The notes under the pieces were generated by a model. That model did no database searches and had not been told where the DNA came from. It saw only the letters and a list, made by a program, of their open reading frames with translations. Source: an uncultured Selenomonadaceae bacterium (GTDB lineage Bacteria; Bacillota; Negativicutes; Selenomonadales; Selenomonadaceae). From it: a stretch of 35,390 bases of DNA. Shown in pieces: positions 2,420-33,256 of this stretch. How positions within the stretch are numbered: position 1 is the first letter of the stretch; each line of letters starts with the position of its first letter. The DNA lies in the NCBI GenBank assembly GCA_905236725.1, contig CAJOCT010000009.1:1-35390 (forward strand), given 5' to 3'. The position numbers and the translations under genes are program-made.

Positions 2420-2437
2420 GCCGAAAATAAAAAAATC

Positions 2438-2853
2438 CGGCAGGCAGACGATAAGCCGGATTCTGTATGTGGCAGCCATTTATCTGAATCGAACGTTACC
2501 GCCCGACTTTAGCAGCTTACCCGGAAGGTCAGCGAGCAACCTCAACCCTTCCCTATTTAGCTTTGCTCCGCGTGAGGTTTGTCAGGCTTGAATGTTACCA
2601 TTCAACCGGTAGGCTCTTACCCTGCCTTTTCACCCTTGCCGCTCTTAGTCTTCAGTTGACAGTTTTCAGTTGTCAGAAATAATTTCCTGCATTGCTGTCA
2701 ACTGACAACTGACAACTAAGCACGGCGGTTTGCTTTTCTGTGACACTGTCTTCAAGATTACTCTCACCGGGCGTTACCCGGCACGCCGCTCTGCGGAGTC
2801 CGGACTTTCCTCGTGCAAAAAAACTTGCCCGCGACTGCCTCTTCTGCCTGCCG
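2438..2853 (-). ncRNA. rnpB: RNase P RNA, bacterial type A, with enlarged P12
   Basis: Catalytic RNA of RNase P, which matures tRNA 5' ends. The minus strand shows the family's conserved blocks in order: GAGGAAAGTCCGGACTCC after the first stem, GGTAACGCC, AGAAAAGCAAACCGCC, AAGGGTGAAAAGG, GGTAAGAGC, then GAGCAAAGCTAAATAGGG and ACAGAATCCGGCTTAT near the 3' end. The 5' CGGCAGGCAGA pairs with TCTGCCTGCCG at the 3' end to make P1, and P1 followed by a T-run also looks like the terminator. Length is about 416 nt. The arm at the P12 position, after AAACCGCC, is replaced by a long hairpin of 7-bp repeats (2644-2720). Confidence 0.95.
2644..2720. repeat. Heptamer-repeat hairpin inside rnpB P12
   Basis: Two arms of imperfect 7-bp repeats face each other. 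In plus orientation the left arm contains TTCAGTT, GACAGTT, TTCAGTT, and the right arm contains CAACTGA, CAACTGA, CAACTAA. They flank an A/T-rich centre, AAATAATTTC. The arms are mutually complementary, so the insert extends P12 as one long imperfect helix and should leave the RNase P core intact. Confidence 0.85.
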
Positions 2854-11465: not shown

Positions 11466-12626
11466 TTGAATTTGAAAAAATATTTTGCCGGTGCGTCGGC
11501 AATGTTGATAATATTTACAAGCAATCCGCAGATTTTCGCGCAGGGAACTGAAGTTTTCGGCGAGGAGTTTGACACGCAAAATTCTCAACCGTCAGAAACT
11601 CCGCCCGATGAAGTTTTTACTCCGCCTGCAGAAAATAATTCTGCTCCTCCTCCTCAACCTGTGACGGAAAATCCCGCGCCTCAACCTGTCGAGGAAAATC
11701 CCGCGCCTCAACCTGTGGCAGAAAATCCCGCGCCTCAACCTGTGGCAGAAAATCCCGCGCCTCAACCTGTGGCAGAAAATCCTCCTCCTCAACCTGTGGC
11801 AGAAAATCCCGCGCCTCAACCTGTGGCAGAAATTTCACAGCCGCCCGAAGAAGTTTCCGCGCCCTTCGAACAAAATGAGAGCGACGAAGATTTTGGCGAC
11901 AGTCTCAATTTCAACAACATTAACGGTCAAGACAACCCCGAAACTTTTTCACCGCCGCAACAAAATGAAACTCCGGACGGCGGAAATATCACGGTTATAA
12001 CTCCGCCGGAAAATAATTCTTCTCGCACAAATAACGAAAATCAAACTCCTTCAACTCCGCGCAATTCTTCTCAAAAGAAATTAAAAACTTTGCCGCAACG
12101 TTTTGTACAGGTGGCGGTTGACGAAAATTATATTTACTACCTCGACAAACAGAGCGTTGCCTGGAAAAAAATTCCTTACATGAATTCCGAATATATGGCG
12201 GACGTGTGGGTCAGAATGATTGAGCGCGAGCCCGATACAAGCGGAATGCCCGAAGATTTGGCGGCTTATGTGAACGATACAAGCAGTGACGAATTTGCTT
12301 TGGCTAAGGCGCAAGGTTATCAGTACATGAACGAAGACGTTAAAGTTTTGCAGAATAAAAGATATTTTTTGGAGCGTTATTTACTGCGGCCGAGCAAAGA
12401 TCAAATTCAATTTCTCTGTGAATTGGAGGTCGTCGGTCACCCGCAAAATACCGCCTCTCAAAGAAAATACGATTACAACAACTGGGAAGAACTTATTCCC
12501 GGCAGTATCGAATCGATTTTATATTATTCGATTATTCAAGTTATCGGCAAGGGCAAGGCATCGGAGCGCGGTCATATGACTTTTATCGATATGGTCGAAG
12601 AATACGGCAGAATTTCGATGCGTTAA
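11466..12626 (+). CDS. Secreted Pro-rich repeat protein, function unknown
   Basis: 386 aa from TTG at 11466 (GGCGGGGTGA ends 6 nt upstream); GTG at 11457 would put the start inside that ribosome site. The signal peptide is LKKYFAGASAMLIIFTSNPQIFAQG with cleavage likely after the Ala of FAQ. Residues about 60-125 are seven 9-residue units of the pattern PQPVAENPA, which would extend across the periplasm or from the surface. A second low-complexity part rich in Asn, Pro and Ser follows. The C-terminal third (from about residue 215) is a folded domain: QVAVDENYIYYLDKQSV, VWVRMIERE, KRYFLERYLLRP, FLCELEVVG. It resembles small surface-adhesin-like domains of Negativicutes, but I do not recognise a function. 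The AAA+ gene starts 22 nt later. Confidence 0.8.
   Translation: MNLKKYFAGASAMLIIFTSNPQIFAQGTEVFGEEFDTQNSQPSETPPDEVFTPPAENNSAPPPQPVTENPAPQPVEENPAPQPVAENPAPQPVAENPAPQPVAENPPPQPVAENPAPQPVAEISQPPEEVSAPFEQNESDEDFGDSLNFNNINGQDNPETFSPPQQNETPDGGNITVITPPENNSSRTNNENQTPSTPRNSSQKKLKTLPQRFVQVAVDENYIYYLDKQSVAWKKIPYMNSEYMADVWVRMIEREPDTSGMPEDLAAYVNDTSSDEFALAKAQGYQYMNEDVKVLQNKRYFLERYLLRPSKDQIQFLCELEVVGHPQNTASQRKYDYNNWEELIPGSIESILYYSIIQVIGKGKASERGHMTFIDMVEEYGRISMR
11652..11834 (+). repeat. 27-bp in-frame tandem repeat, seven units
   Basis: Units begin at 11652, 11679, 11706, 11733, 11760, 11787 and 11814. The shared core is CCTCAACCTGTGGCAGAAAA, encoding PQPVAENPA with small changes. Near-identical DNA between middle units suggests recent unit gain or loss and likely copy-number variation. 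Confidence 0.95.
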
Positions 12627-12647: not shown

Positions 12648-13499
12648 ATGAGTGACGAGAAAAAAAATTCGCCGCCGAAAAAAGTTGAGGCTGAAGAGAA
12701 TATTTTTATCCCCGAAGAACCGCGCTGGTCTTTGGACGATATAATTTTGTCGGACGCGGTGAAAAATCAAATTTTGGACGTGGCGACTTATGCGGAAAAT
12801 TCTTACAGGGTTTTTGAACTTTGGGGATTTAAAAATACTCATAAATTTTCGCGCAGAATCGGCATAAATTTATACGGTGCGCCGGGCACGGGTAAAACTA
12901 TGGCGGCGCATGCGATTGCGAAAAATCTCGGCAGAAAAATTCTCGTCGTCAACTACGCTGACATTGAATCAAAGTACGTCGGCGAAACTCCGAAAAATAT
13001 TCGCAAGGCTTTTGAGGCGGCGAAAAAATCTGACAGCATTTTATTTTTCGACGAGGCGGACGCAATTTTAAGCAAGCGCGTTACAAATATGACGCAGGCG
13101 GTTGATGTCAGCGTAAATCAAACTCGCTCTGTTATGCTGATGTTGATGAATGAATTTCAAGATTTTATAATTTTCGCGACGAATTTTATTTCAAATTTCG
13201 ATCCGGCTTTTATGCGGAGAATTTCAATTCACGTTAAATTCGAACTGCCTGACGAAGAATGTCGGAAAAAACTTTGGCAAATGTATATTCCGAAAGAATT
13301 GCCGAATAATATTGACGTTGACGAGATTGCGAAAAAATATGACGGAATTTCCGGCAGTGATATTTCAAATGCGATGTTAAATTCAGCGTTCAAGGCGGCG
13401 CGATTGAAACTTGATTCGCTTGATAAAAAAATTGTTTTTGAGGCTGTCGAAAATATTCTTGCAAGCAAGCGGGCTAATTTAGGGGATAATGAACAGTGA
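12648..13499 (+). CDS. AAA+ ATPase, FtsH/SpoVK-like single domain
   Basis: 283 aa with one AAA+ module. Walker A is GAPGTGKT (77-84), Walker B ILFFDEAD (131-138), sensor 1 FATNF (176-180), arginine finger FMRR (188-191), and a lid helix follows with GISGSDISNAML. The pore-loop position reads SKYVGET, typical of substrate-threading AAA ATPases. There is no protease or membrane domain, so it likely remodels partners. The short acidic N-terminal part may recognise them. The final codons GAA CAG TGA fall inside a heptamer array (13491-13511), so the present C-terminus appears to have been set by insertion of that array. Two small unknown genes lie downstream in the same direction, beyond a four-helix-bundle gene. 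Confidence 0.85.
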   Translation: MSDEKKNSPPKKVEAEENIFIPEEPRWSLDDIILSDAVKNQILDVATYAENSYRVFELWGFKNTHKFSRRIGINLYGAPGTGKTMAAHAIAKNLGRKILVVNYADIESKYVGETPKNIRKAFEAAKKSDSILFFDEADAILSKRVTNMTQAVDVSVNQTRSVMLMLMNEFQDFIIFATNFISNFDPAFMRRISIHVKFELPDEECRKKLWQMYIPKELPNNIDVDEIAKKYDGISGSDISNAMLNSAFKAARLKLDSLDKKIVFEAVENILASKRANLGDNEQ

Positions 13500-13511
13500 A
13501 CAGGGGACAGT
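13491..13511. repeat. Heptamer array, left arm of the four-helix cassette
   Basis: Three units, GAACAGT GAACAGG GGACAGT, overlap the stop of the AAA+ gene. The reverse complement of the right arm (13907-13934) carries closely similar units (GGACAGT, GGACAGG-like), so the two arms are inverted relative to each other. Confidence 0.8.
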
Positions 13512-13533
13512 TTTTTTAAGGAGGTTTTTACCT

Positions 13534-13908
13534 TTGCCTGTTAAAAGTTACAGAGAATTGATTGTTTGGCAAAAAGCAATGGACCTGGCTGTAGAAATTT
13601 ATCGGTTGGTTAAACTTCTTCCGAAATCCGAAATTTATGCCTTGTCTGACCAAATGCGAAGAGTCGCAGTATCAATTCCTTCAAATATCGCCGAAGGACA
13701 GGGAAGAAATTCTACTAAAGAATATGTTAAACTTCTTTCTATTGCACGCGGCTCACAAACCGAATTGGAAACACAGTTAGAAATTTGTTTGCGCTTGGAA
13801 TATCTTTCAGTTTCTGACGCGGAAGTTGCTTTAGGTCTGTGTCAAGAAATCAGCAAAATGCTTGTTACTATGATGAAAAAGTTGACGGACAAGGACAAGT
13901 CCCTGTAA
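13534..13908 (+). CDS. Four-helix bundle protein (S23 / 23S rRNA IVP family)
   Basis: 124-aa helical protein of the family also found in intervening sequences of 23S rRNA genes and related to the Avd protein of diversity-generating retroelements. Diagnostic blocks are SYRELIVWQKAMDL at the start, LPKSEIYALSDQMRRVAVSIPSNIAEG in the middle, and QTELETQLEICLRLEYLS. Basic residues on the bundle suggest nucleic acid binding; no catalytic motif is present. I choose TTG at 13534, with a perfect AAGGAGG at 13518-13524 and a 9-nt spacer. The longer frame from 13489 starts in the repeat. Both flanks are 7-bp repeat arms, and the last codons lie in the right arm, so the gene looks like a self-contained insertion among the AAA+ group genes. 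Confidence 0.92.
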   Translation: MPVKSYRELIVWQKAMDLAVEIYRLVKLLPKSEIYALSDQMRRVAVSIPSNIAEGQGRNSTKEYVKLLSIARGSQTELETQLEICLRLEYLSVSDAEVALGLCQEISKMLVTMMKKLTDKDKSL

Positions 13909-13934
13909 CCTGTCCACTGTCCGCTACTCACTAA
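13884..13934. repeat. Heptamer array, right arm of the four-helix cassette
   Basis: Imperfect 7-bp phase runs through the end of the four-helix gene and beyond. The clearest units are AACCTGT, CCACTGT, CCGCTAC, TCACTAA (13907-13934). The ribosome site of the next gene follows directly. Confidence 0.8.
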
Positions 13935-13956
13935 CATAAAAGGAGATGTTTTTAAA

Positions 13957-14304
13957 ATGATTCCTGTTTTACTCGGAATTGGCGCGTTGGTCGGCGGTTA
14001 TTTGGTCGTCACCAACTGGGAAGAAGTTACCAAATGGCTTCAGGATTTCCTGCCGAAAATCCAAGAAGTTTTGAAAAGCACGGGCATCGGCGATTATGCG
14101 GCGAAACTTTTTTCAAGCATTGAGGACGGCGCACTTCGTCTGGTTCACAAACTTTATTACAAAGAAAACGGCAAGTGGATTGAAAAAACTACCACGCGCG
14201 AAATTGACGAGTCGCAAGTTCCCGAATGGGCAAAAGTCGGCTTGAGCGCGAAAGAAACTGATGTTACCGAACGTTACGAGAAAGAACTTGAATTGACAGT
14301 TTGA
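13957..14304 (+). CDS. Small membrane-anchored protein of unknown function (AAA+ neighbour 1)
   Basis: 115 aa, not recognised. Residues about 3-21 (IPVLLGIGALVGGYLVV) form one hydrophobic segment that is probably a membrane anchor. Next is an amphipathic helix, then a C-terminal part with alternating hydrophobic and charged residues: LVHKLYYKENGKWIEKTTTREID, ending ERYEKELELTV. This part resembles the end of the next gene's product (YFKDAEDKWHKV, RRELDL, PIEIE), suggesting a shared domain. AAGGAGATG precedes the ATG with good spacing. The 15-nt gap to the next gene indicates cotranscription. Confidence 0.75.
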   Translation: MIPVLLGIGALVGGYLVVTNWEEVTKWLQDFLPKIQEVLKSTGIGDYAAKLFSSIEDGALRLVHKLYYKENGKWIEKTTTREIDESQVPEWAKVGLSAKETDVTERYEKELELTV

Positions 14305-16087: not shown

Positions 16088-16104
16088 TTAATTTCCTCAT
16101 CAAA

Positions 16105-16139
16105 CATTACGCATTACGCATTACTAATTACGCATTGAT
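16105..16139. repeat. Heptamer array between rapZ and yvcK
   Basis: Five 7-bp units: CATTACG, CATTACG, CATTACT, AATTACG, CATTGAT. It fills nearly all the 52-bp gap and abuts the rapZ stop codon. Confidence 0.85.
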
Positions 16140-17871: not shown

Positions 17872-17906
17872 CAACTAACCCCTGCCCCCTATCCGCTACC
17901 CACTAA
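17872..17906. repeat. Heptamer array after comF
   Basis: Five units: CAACTAA, CCCCTGC, CCCCTAT, CCGCTAC, CCACTAA. The A/T-rich TGAAAAAATTCTTT lies just before it, like the centre of the other copies. The rest of the 194-bp gap before cheB (17907-18038) shows no clear promoter or gene. Confidence 0.8.
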
Positions 17907-19204: not shown

Positions 19205-19274
19205 TAGTTTATAGTTGTCAGTGTGTAGCAGACAGAAATTTTCTAACAACTAAAAACTACAAACTACCAACTAA
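19205..19274. repeat. Heptamer hairpin between cheB and cheA
   Basis: Left arm units TAGTTTA, TAGTTGT, CAGTGTG, TAGCAGA; centre GAAATTTTC; right arm units TAACAAC, TAAAAAC, TACAAAC, TACCAAC, TAAAATT. The arms are partly complementary. It fills the intergenic gap, and the cheA ribosome site GGAGGAG follows directly. Confidence 0.85.
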
Positions 19275-19290
19275 AATTGGAGGAGTATGA

Positions 19291-23463: not shown

Positions 23464-23511
23464 TAGTTGCCGGAAAATTTCTGCCCACTACCCACTGACA
23501 ACTGCCCACTA
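23464..23511. repeat. Heptamer array between the small membrane protein gene and fliA
   Basis: Left part TAGTTGC, centre GGAAAATTTCTG, right arm units CCCACTA, CCCACTG, ACAACTG, CCCACTA in strict 7-bp phase. It fills the 76-bp gap between the two genes. Confidence 0.85.
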
Positions 23512-24320: not shown

Positions 24321-25970
24321 ATGGCAGCACCGACTATTGGCGGATTTGATTCGGGGTATAAATATGAGTTCAGGGAAGACGGCGTATATTTGACAATATA
24401 TCCTGCCGAATCGGAATCTCTTATGTTTGAACTTTCCGACATGCGGCAGATTTTGCGAGAATGCGGCGTTATTGATTATGACGTGGCTCTTTTGTCCAGG
24501 ACAATGCGAGAGGCTTCGGGCAGGGCGCAAAAAATCGCCGAGCCGGTCGAAATGACGGAAGAAATTTTGCAGAAAATTGCCGACGGCGAGCCGGTTAATC
24601 TCAATCAAGACGAGGCTTTCGCCAGACTTATCGTCGATATAAGCCGCGACAAAATGAAAGCAACCGTCAAATACGACACGAAAAACGGCTCTAAACTCCC
24701 GACCTTTGACATGGTTATGGCGGAATTGACTGAAAAGGGCGTAAAGTTCGGAATTGACGAAGATGAAATTAAACGCGGGATCGAAAGTCTTTCGCCGTTC
24801 GTTGCCGCGCAGGGCAAACCGCCGATACCGGGCGAAAATGCTTACATCGACAGAAAATTTGATTTGGGCGTTAAAGGTCGTCCCGTCGTCGACCAATATG
24901 ATCGTGTCGATTATAAAAATTTAAATTTATTCGTCTTGGCTGAAGCAAATGAAACCCTTGCAATTCGCATCCCGCAGACAAAAGGCACGGCGGGTACGAA
25001 TGTTTTCGGCGATACCGTTCCCGCGCAAAACGGCAGACCTATCCCAATGCCCGCCGGAAAAAATACTCAAGTTGTCGGCGAAAATCAACTCATTGCGACA
25101 ATTAACGGGCAGATTGTGGACACCGGAAATAAAATCAGCGTCGATCCGCGACTTGAGATTAAAAGTTCAGTCGGTGTGGCGACGGGCGACATTGATTTTG
25201 ACGGAAGTGTTTTAATCAGCGGCGACGTTAAGCAGGGTTTTTCCGTCAAAGCGACGGGCGACATTGAAATTAAAGGCTCTGTCAACGGCGGCGAGGTCAA
25301 CGGGCGCAGTATCATCATAAGCGGCGGAATTACGGGCGCGAATCGCGGAAAAGTTCAGGCCGTCCACGACGTTCGCGCGGCTTTTGCGGAAAACGCGATT
25401 GTCGAGGCAGGACGAGATATTTATATTGCCGATGTTGCTTTACATTCGACTTTGCGGGCAGGCAAAAAAATTATCGTCGAGGGCAAGGGCGGAAAAATTA
25501 TCGGAGGTTTGACTGTTTCGGGCGAAGAAGTTTCCGCGAAAGTTATCGGCAACGATGCTTTTGTCATCACGCGCGTTTCAGTGGGCGTTGACCCGAATCT
25601 TCAAAAAGAATATCACGAGGTTTGCAAAAGTTACAAAGAAGGCAAGAAAAAACTCCTTCATATTACGCAGACTTTAAACACGCTTGCAAAAATCGACATG
25701 AGCAAACTTCCCCCCGAAAGAATGGCGCAAATTAACGCCATTACCCGTTCACAATTCCCAATCGCCGGGCAACTCAAACGCGATGAGCAAAAAATTTTGG
25801 AACTTGAAACAAAACTTTCCGAAATGAAAAACGGCAAAATTCGCGTCGACGATGTGATGTACCCCGGTGCGCGACTTTCAATAAATTCCGTCGTCAAAAA
25901 CGTTCAGGAAGAATATCGCCATTGCACGATGTCACTCAACGAAGGCGAAATTTCTCTCGGTACGTTTTAA
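24321..25970 (+). CDS. FapA family protein (DUF342)
   Basis: 549 aa. Residues about 1-190 form an N-terminal domain. From about 215 to 430 the sequence has repeating short beta units (ATGDIDFDGSVLISGDVKQGF, ATGDIEIKGSVNGGEV, GNDAFVITRVSVGVD), the beta-helix of the FapA/DUF342 family. A coiled-coil-like helical segment runs at about 435-510, then a short beta C-terminus (GARLSINSVVKNVQEEY). Vibrio FapA links glucose signalling to flagellar assembly; in many motile bacteria DUF342 genes sit next to fliA, as here. Its role here is inferred from that context. It starts 31 nt after fliA with GAGAGGGAG. Confidence 0.85.
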   Translation: MAAPTIGGFDSGYKYEFREDGVYLTIYPAESESLMFELSDMRQILRECGVIDYDVALLSRTMREASGRAQKIAEPVEMTEEILQKIADGEPVNLNQDEAFARLIVDISRDKMKATVKYDTKNGSKLPTFDMVMAELTEKGVKFGIDEDEIKRGIESLSPFVAAQGKPPIPGENAYIDRKFDLGVKGRPVVDQYDRVDYKNLNLFVLAEANETLAIRIPQTKGTAGTNVFGDTVPAQNGRPIPMPAGKNTQVVGENQLIATINGQIVDTGNKISVDPRLEIKSSVGVATGDIDFDGSVLISGDVKQGFSVKATGDIEIKGSVNGGEVNGRSIIISGGITGANRGKVQAVHDVRAAFAENAIVEAGRDIYIADVALHSTLRAGKKIIVEGKGGKIIGGLTVSGEEVSAKVIGNDAFVITRVSVGVDPNLQKEYHEVCKSYKEGKKKLLHITQTLNTLAKIDMSKLPPERMAQINAITRSQFPIAGQLKRDEQKILELETKLSEMKNGKIRVDDVMYPGARLSINSVVKNVQEEYRHCTMSLNEGEISLGTF

Positions 25971-25973
25971 TTT

Positions 25974-26008
25974 CTAATCCCTAACCACTGTCCACTAACC
26001 ACTATTCA
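25974..26008. repeat. Heptamer array upstream of the small basic protein
   Basis: Five units, CTAATCC, CTAACCA, CTGTCCA, CTAACCA, CTATTCA, in exact 7-bp phase. They begin 4 bp after the FapA stop and run directly into the ribosome site GGAGGTG at 26009. Confidence 0.9.
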
Positions 26009-33185: not shown

Positions 33186-33196
33186 ATATAAAAATT

Positions 33197-33224
33197 CCTA
33201 ATTCCTCACTCCACATTACAAATT
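33197..33224. repeat. Heptamer array upstream of brnT
   Basis: Four units: CCTAATT, CCTCACT, CCACATT, ACAAATT, between the brnT promoter and the porin terminator. Confidence 0.75.
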
Positions 33225-33256
33225 AAAAAGAGCCTTCGATTTCTCGAAGACTCTTT
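33221..33256 (-). terminator. Terminator of the porin gene
   Basis: Stem AAAGAG-CTTCGA (33227 on) / TCGAAG-CTCTTT (to 33256) with one mismatch, followed on the minus strand by TTTTTAATT. A second hairpin (AAGTTCA/TGAACTT) lies between it and the gene. Confidence 0.85.

Follow-up and report, generated by a model that had tools for sequence, protein, structure and literature searches.

A four-helix-bundle gene between heptamer arms and its gene-less arrays as a possible two-part repeat element in uncultured Selenomonadaceae

A stretch of 35,390 nucleotides from an uncultured Selenomonadaceae bacterium, termed the window here, carries a gene for a four-helix-bundle protein of the IVP/S23p family, enclosed by inverted seven-nucleotide repeats. 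Similar arrays without a gene lie elsewhere in the same window. The question that this locus raises is how the gene, its arms and the gene-less arrays belong together. An earlier note, made from the sequence of the window, proposed that gene-bearing and gene-less forms are one element family, perhaps moved or stabilized by the protein.

The protein scores 134 bits against PF05635 (23S_rRNA_IVP/S23p), for which the curated cut-off is 33.8, and it is indeed a member of the family known from 23S rRNA intervening sequences (IVS), as the note had stated. Its reading frame most likely starts at TTG 13534, after the AAGGAGG motif, rather than at ATG 13489. No transposase family was matched in a Pfam profile search, and no phage match was found. 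IVP proteins are not known to contain a nuclease, transposase or polymerase domain, and S23p/IVP has had no function assigned to it since 1993. Relatives of the protein in the PDB are 2gsc (E 2.5e-23) and 2rld (E 5.4e-10), each deposited with five chains. Xcc0516 has been described as five four-helix bundles (a reference cited in PMC3936711; also PMC4990558). The window genome has three IVP genes.

The coordinates of the features are collected in Table 1. Inverted heptamer arms, which the earlier note had placed on both sides of the gene, were located at 13490-13511 and 13902-13935, and the last codons of two genes do lie within them. The TGA stop of the AAA+ gene (12648-13499) falls in the left arm, and the IVP gene's own TAA stop (13906-13908) in the right one. 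The S23p gene is enclosed by terminal inverted repeats, as in an IVS, and it sits between the AAA+ gene and a 115-residue gene rather than in a 23S rRNA gene; no rRNA was detected in the window by Rfam. A scan for period-7 segments with a threshold of 15/21 lag matches returned nine segments, which fall in the left arm and in seven gene-less sites, the number given in the earlier note. At the same threshold, periods of 4, 5, 8, 10, 11, 13 and 17 gave no segments in the window.

Table 1. Features of the window and the evidence for each.
Feature	Position	Strand	Evidence or remark
RNase P RNA gene	2437-2850	-	RF00010
Gene-less inverted heptamer pair, AGTTGTC../..GACAACT	2647..2723 (2647-2727 in period-7 scan)	-	RF00010 alignment; in RNase P RNA gene
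Upstream host gene, AAA+ ATPase	12648..13499	+	PF00004
Left arm, about three heptamers, TGAACAG TGAACAG GGGACAG T	13490..13511	+	sense-strand AG core
Shine-Dalgarno AAGGAGG of IVP gene	13518..13524	+	read from sequence
IVP/S23p four-helix-bundle gene	13534..13908	+	124 aa, TTG start; PF05635 E 3e-39
Right arm, about five heptamers, CCTGTAA CCTGTCC ACTGTCC GCTACTC ACTAAC	13902..13935	+	inverted relative to left arm
Downstream host gene, 115 aa, without Pfam family	13957..14304	+	orthologous-site marker
Gene-less array, CATTACG class	16095..16138	+	period-7 scan
Gene-less array, CCCACTA class	17878..17906	+	period-7 scan
Gene-less array AACTACA/AACTAAA, cheB-cheA gap	19238..19278	+	period-7 scan
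Gene-less array, CCCACTA class	23481..23511	+	period-7 scan
Gene-less array, CTAACCA class	25968..26008	+	period-7 scan
Gene-less array, AATTCCT class	33192..33230	+	period-7 scan

Two further features of the window were observed. The 115-residue downstream gene has paralogues, and this family, which has no Pfam match, reaches six members in a genome; at times these stand in tandem or take the form of longer repeated proteins. In addition, a near-perfect 27-nt tandem repeat of 6.7 copies at 11652-11832 gives rise to a PQPVAENPA repeat in a protein predicted to be exported.

Flanking arms of this kind are a general feature of IVP genes. Among genus mates of the window genome (uncultured Selenomonadales), 39 of 60 genomes carry one to four IVP genes each, and complementary flanking arrays are found at 29 of 32 of these genes, compared, at the same threshold, with 17 of 862 control genes from that genus, some of the 17 being themselves bordered by gene-less arrays. 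In a comparison of flanks at 80 IVP loci from about 20 phyla, complementary arrays occur at 54 of 78 IVP genes, and the other 24 fall below the arm threshold. The check that every four-helix gene should have heptamer flanks is borne out for nearly every intact gene of the genus and for part of the remote loci. Across the 80 loci, identity at lag 7 is 0.37-0.38 in IVP flanks, whereas control stretches give 0.26, and the signal recurs at lags 14 and 21.

The wording of the heptamers varies by locus, and the left and right arms of one locus always share their unit: the match between a locus's own arms has a median of 20-21.5, versus 9 for arms of different loci. Arms have a median length of 34 nt and consist of 3-6 heptamers. 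The unit is roughly TYAGKKR, in which AG is 92-95% invariant, and successive AGs are spaced by 7 nt (189 times) or 8 nt (49 times). Over 87 arm pairs, AG stands at 0.150 in the left arm versus 0.031 for CT, and the right arm mirrors this; the polarity with AG on the sense strand of the left arm is present in 82 of 84 loci.

Such symmetry could in principle be maintained in RNA. The arms would then pair in the operon mRNA, RNase III would remove the stem together with the gene, selection on RNA pairing would keep the arms complementary, and the element would persist as an RNA-silent one. There is a precedent in the 23S IVS of Coxiella, where RNase III cuts a 28-bp terminal stem and the S23p gene is preceded by GACAGAT heptamers (PMC4990558). 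IVP genes are also co-directional with both neighbors (28/31 and 53/66), and the arms of the window gene pair in the predicted fold, with a z of only -1.35. However, mismatches between arms comprise 101 G.U and 143 A.C pairs. Because there is no G.U excess, the complementarity looks like a property of the DNA rather than one maintained via RNA pairing, and selection on RNA pairing was rejected as the source of arm symmetry.

Orthologous sites with and without the insert, which the earlier note had named as a check, do exist: a site may be empty, hold an array alone or carry the gene. In relatives, the AAA+ gene of the window site lies directly before the 115-residue gene, with a gap of 39 nt in the nearest sequenced species and gaps of 20-49 nt in others. 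Two species have an array without a gene there, and in one species a gene-less inverted pair precedes the same 115-residue gene behind a different upstream gene. The atpG/atpD gap contains an IVP gene in six species, is a clean gap of 23-30 nt in about a dozen, and otherwise holds other small genes or arrays only; in genome G021, the array in this gap is built of GGGACAA, which is also the unit of the IVP element that this genome has at cheB/cheA. The cheB-cheA gap, which holds only an array in the window, contains an IVP gene in three other species. No target-site duplication was seen; empty sites are present, but the genomes are too diverged for base-exact borders. Across sister species (loci L282-L311), the contents of the short atpG/atpD gap are thus very diverse: it may be empty or hold arrays, an IVP element, a glyoxalase-like gene, or genes for small acidic proteins that are presumably secreted.

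The gene and its arms differ in how they evolve. The IVP protein tree of 32 genus loci sorts by site, with 6 changes, which is the minimum, versus 17.5 when shuffled. A tree that follows site in this way is compatible with a single filling of each site and later inheritance along with the host, and the IVP gene itself appears to move rarely. Recurrent insertion into hot sites is unsupported in the genus, where the IVPs of one site form one clade. Every pair with sufficient divergence for a judgement has a dN/dS ratio within 0.04-0.21, and the protein is evidently under purifying selection and inherited vertically with its site. At orthologous loci, a locus's own arm pair matches at 21.6, versus 14.9 when left and right arms are crossed between loci, and L028 and L029 differ by a matching change in both arms (TAGGGA/TAGGGG and TCCCTA/CCCCTA). 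Judged from these sequences, the two arms of a locus change together and the protein stays conserved. Same-site genes lacking arrays, which would speak against a single element, are absent in the genus; the only armless ones are two decayed IVP-like ORFs at the murG site (L325 and L327), which also lack the conserved SIPSNIAEG motif and are possibly domesticated or dying copies.

The gene-less arrays track the presence of IVP genes. In stretches of 23 genus genomes (11 with and 12 without IVP), there are 58 gene-less arrays in 829 kb (~70/Mb) of IVP-positive genomes versus 5 in 1022 kb (~5/Mb) of IVP-negative ones, and arrays occur in 9 of 11 versus 2 of 12 genomes (Fisher p 0.003). The earlier note held that a wide occurrence of arrays in genomes lacking the family would refute its proposal, and this outcome did not appear in the genus. 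No arrays are found in 651 kb of two nearly complete IVP-negative genomes (G003 and G049); they nonetheless occur in two IVP-negative MAGs, which are 88-89% complete. Dispersed arrays match the IVP arms of their own genome at 18.2, versus 12.0 for those of other genomes. Because gene-less arrays are common where IVP is present and rare in relatives without it, gene and arrays look like one system; arms, array density and the within-genome match of units together support the claim that gene-bearing and gene-less forms are one family. On the AtpD tree, genomes with IVP are scattered, with two supported independent pairs and no counterexamples, and two pairs are too few to separate the association from shared history.

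Period-7 arrays could alternatively be neutral products of polymerase slippage, with IVP genes as passengers and arm symmetry arising by template switching in quasi-palindromes. The concerted turnover of arms is compatible with conversion between them, and the number of heptamers varies among Coxiella strains (PMC4990558). Heptamers are also over-represented among bacterial simple repeats, for which slippage at the polymerase footprint has been proposed, as cited in PMC4692102. Slippage does not, however, predict the excess of arms at IVP genes over control genes, the AG polarity or the lower array density in IVP-negative relatives, and 100 kb of E. coli contain no arrays. We consider it quite improbable.

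The gene-less arrays have no preferred orientation (38 sense, 28 antisense; p 0.27) and no preferred type of gap, all gap types being occupied, and many are single arms that are incapable of forming a stem. A role as sense-strand sites only was rejected, since the orientation bias is not significant. Unit wording is linked to protein subtype in the genus, where 17 of 18 subtype-B IVP proteins go with AAT-core units and subtype A goes with AG-core units. A universal link fails in other phyla, for which the subtype-B set was taken from plasmid records, and genome G000 has AAT-class arrays yet no subtype-B IVP. Flavobacterium genomes with 9-12 IVP genes have hardly any gene-less arrays, and both the arrays and the IVP-free species of this group are too few for a replication of the IVP-array correlation. 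On Nostoc and Pseudanabaena plasmids, arrays of the same unit cluster around IVP.

Cyanobacterial plasmids also carry IVP genes in gaps of CRISPR-Cas operons (L342, L345, L347, L338, L339), several with heptamer arms, in the arrangements cas6-IVP-cas4, cas2-IVP-cas1 and cas10-IVP-cmr3. In Pseudanabaena pPg_01 (L352, 18791-22526), arrays that share one AGCT-type unit, some more than 15 copies long, occupy several successive gaps of a type I-D CRISPR operon around IVP. The 23S_rRNA_IVP family has been listed as a cas-associated function, and IVP genes have been reported in cas loci (PMC3936711); this listing may stem from insertion into the gaps of operons and not from a role in CRISPR.

One gene-less site of the window lies within a structured RNA. 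According to the RF00010 alignment, the inverted pair lengthens the P12 helix of the RNase P RNA, within which it lies; the insert hairpin has a predicted energy of -44.2 kcal/mol (z -8.2 versus shuffles), and the RNase P RNA gene of the related G018 is 39 nt shorter at this point. In heterocystous cyanobacteria, the arrays termed STRR are heptanucleotide arrays, and those in rnpB are a parallel to the P12 insert. The 23S rRNA IVS is a case of the same type, except that its loop contains the gene. The lengthened P12 adds to the case for an intervening sequence acting as RNA. Against it, gene-less arrays are often single, lie in either orientation and occupy all gap types, and an RNA stem does not account for the co-occurrence of arrays with IVP genes or for their matching units at loci far apart. 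The description of the element as RNA-like in the earlier note thus finds no support in the arms, which lack a wobble excess, or in the orientation and single state of the arrays. The RNA-stem reading is the main rival, and we regard it as unlikely; it may also apply, alongside the main reading, at any place where the element lies in an RNA helix.

A regulatory role for the arrays must also be weighed. They could bind a translational or transcriptional regulator, and IVP itself could be a TRAP-like ring that acts on operons through AG-heptamers in RNA. TRAP is a ring protein with evenly spaced RNA target units, and even AG units before a ribosome-binding site resemble the RNA targets of such ring proteins. 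MacGregor proposed a post-transcriptional role for the TAACTGA repeats of Beggiatoaceae (PMC4679880), and paired arrays in Geobacter have been called regulator sites (PMC2700814). Yet neither units nor sites stay constant from one sister species to the next, the arrays occupy every type of gap and run in either orientation, one array lies inside a ribozyme (RNase P RNA), and the mirrored right arm is given no role. This reading appears very improbable.

It is, on balance, somewhat probable that the IVP gene with its arms is the gene-bearing, autonomous form of a two-part repeat element, of which the gene-less arrays are the other form. The IVP protein would bind AG-heptamers in DNA, or in a single exposed strand of it, with each subunit taking one unit; the five chains of its relatives and the median arm of 34 nt, about 5 x 7, would be in keeping with this. 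Bound protein would assist the replication or repair enzymes of the host in extending and copying arrays and, now and then, in moving them to new places. The arms would serve as recognition ends, the gene-less arrays would be non-autonomous copies, and expression would be supplied by the host operon. Copying would have to fall to host enzymes, since there is no visible recombinase and no need for a resident reverse transcriptase. Dependence on reverse transcriptase was rejected, as many IVP-positive genomes with arrays have no RVT_1 match. That the protein moves the element, as the earlier note suggested, is plausible.

A two-part element of this type can be compared with several known systems. 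Like the IVS of Leptospira and Coxiella 23S rRNA, it has a gene of the same protein family in a loop between terminal inverted repeats, and the Coxiella IVS has GACAGAT heptamers with an AG core beside the gene, in strain-variable number (PMC4990558). Unlike these, the window element lies between protein-coding genes, elements of the genus are found in many operons, and gene-less arrays are dispersed in the genome with units that differ by site. As in RAYT/REP (BIME) and IS/MITE systems, one gene with inverted repeat ends accompanies many gene-less copies that match the gene-bearing copy of their own genome (18.2 versus 12.0). The IVP element, in contrast, has no Y1 or DDE transposase and no recognized recombinase; its gene encodes a four-helix-bundle protein rather than a REP-associated tyrosine transposase, and what marks its ends is a period of 7 nt with an AG core and no fixed sequence, in tandem arrays rather than single palindromes. 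The bAvd protein of diversity-generating retroelements is a distant fold relative, reached by a weak second match of the window protein to PF22296 (E 2.8e-07, below the Pfam cut-off). However, the IVP gene has no adjacent reverse transcriptase or template/variable repeat, and four genomes (G006, which is 99% complete, G015, G050 and G051) have IVP and arrays without RVT_1.

Heptamer arrays described separately are similar in being intergenic, of period 7, often paired and built of a lineage-specific unit. These include the STRR of heterocystous cyanobacteria, TAACTGA arrays in Beggiatoaceae, for which “no mechanism is evident” (PMC4679880), GGGAATC units in Xanthomonas and GGGGATT units in Nostoc (PMC4692102), and paired sites in Geobacter (PMC2700814). 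They have been read as regulatory sites, quadruplexes or slippage products (PMC2700814, PMC4679880, PMC4692102). In these papers, as far as searched, no mention of an IVP gene was found, and the likeness of their arrays to those described here is one of period, pairing and unit only. A general link between the IVP gene and arrays was likewise not found in the open-access papers searched. The gene-bearing element is of the IVS kind outside rRNA, and the novel part is the protein together with dispersed arrays of free wording as a system.

A wider proposal, which we put forward tentatively and as possible though doubtful, is that IVP/S23p is the overlooked agent of the heptamer repeats reported one by one in cyanobacteria, Beggiatoaceae, Xanthomonas, Geobacter and others. 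The family would then form a phylum-spanning class of mobile repeat elements whose two ends, marked by a 7-nt period and an AG core instead of a sequence, are rewritten together by a protein without a known catalytic domain. The link between IVP and arrays would give S23p/IVP a concrete nucleic-acid partner and the arrays a candidate agent. It may also explain why IVP genes recur in CRISPR-Cas and other operons, and in its light the rRNA IVS would become a special case, one of the places in which a general element can land.
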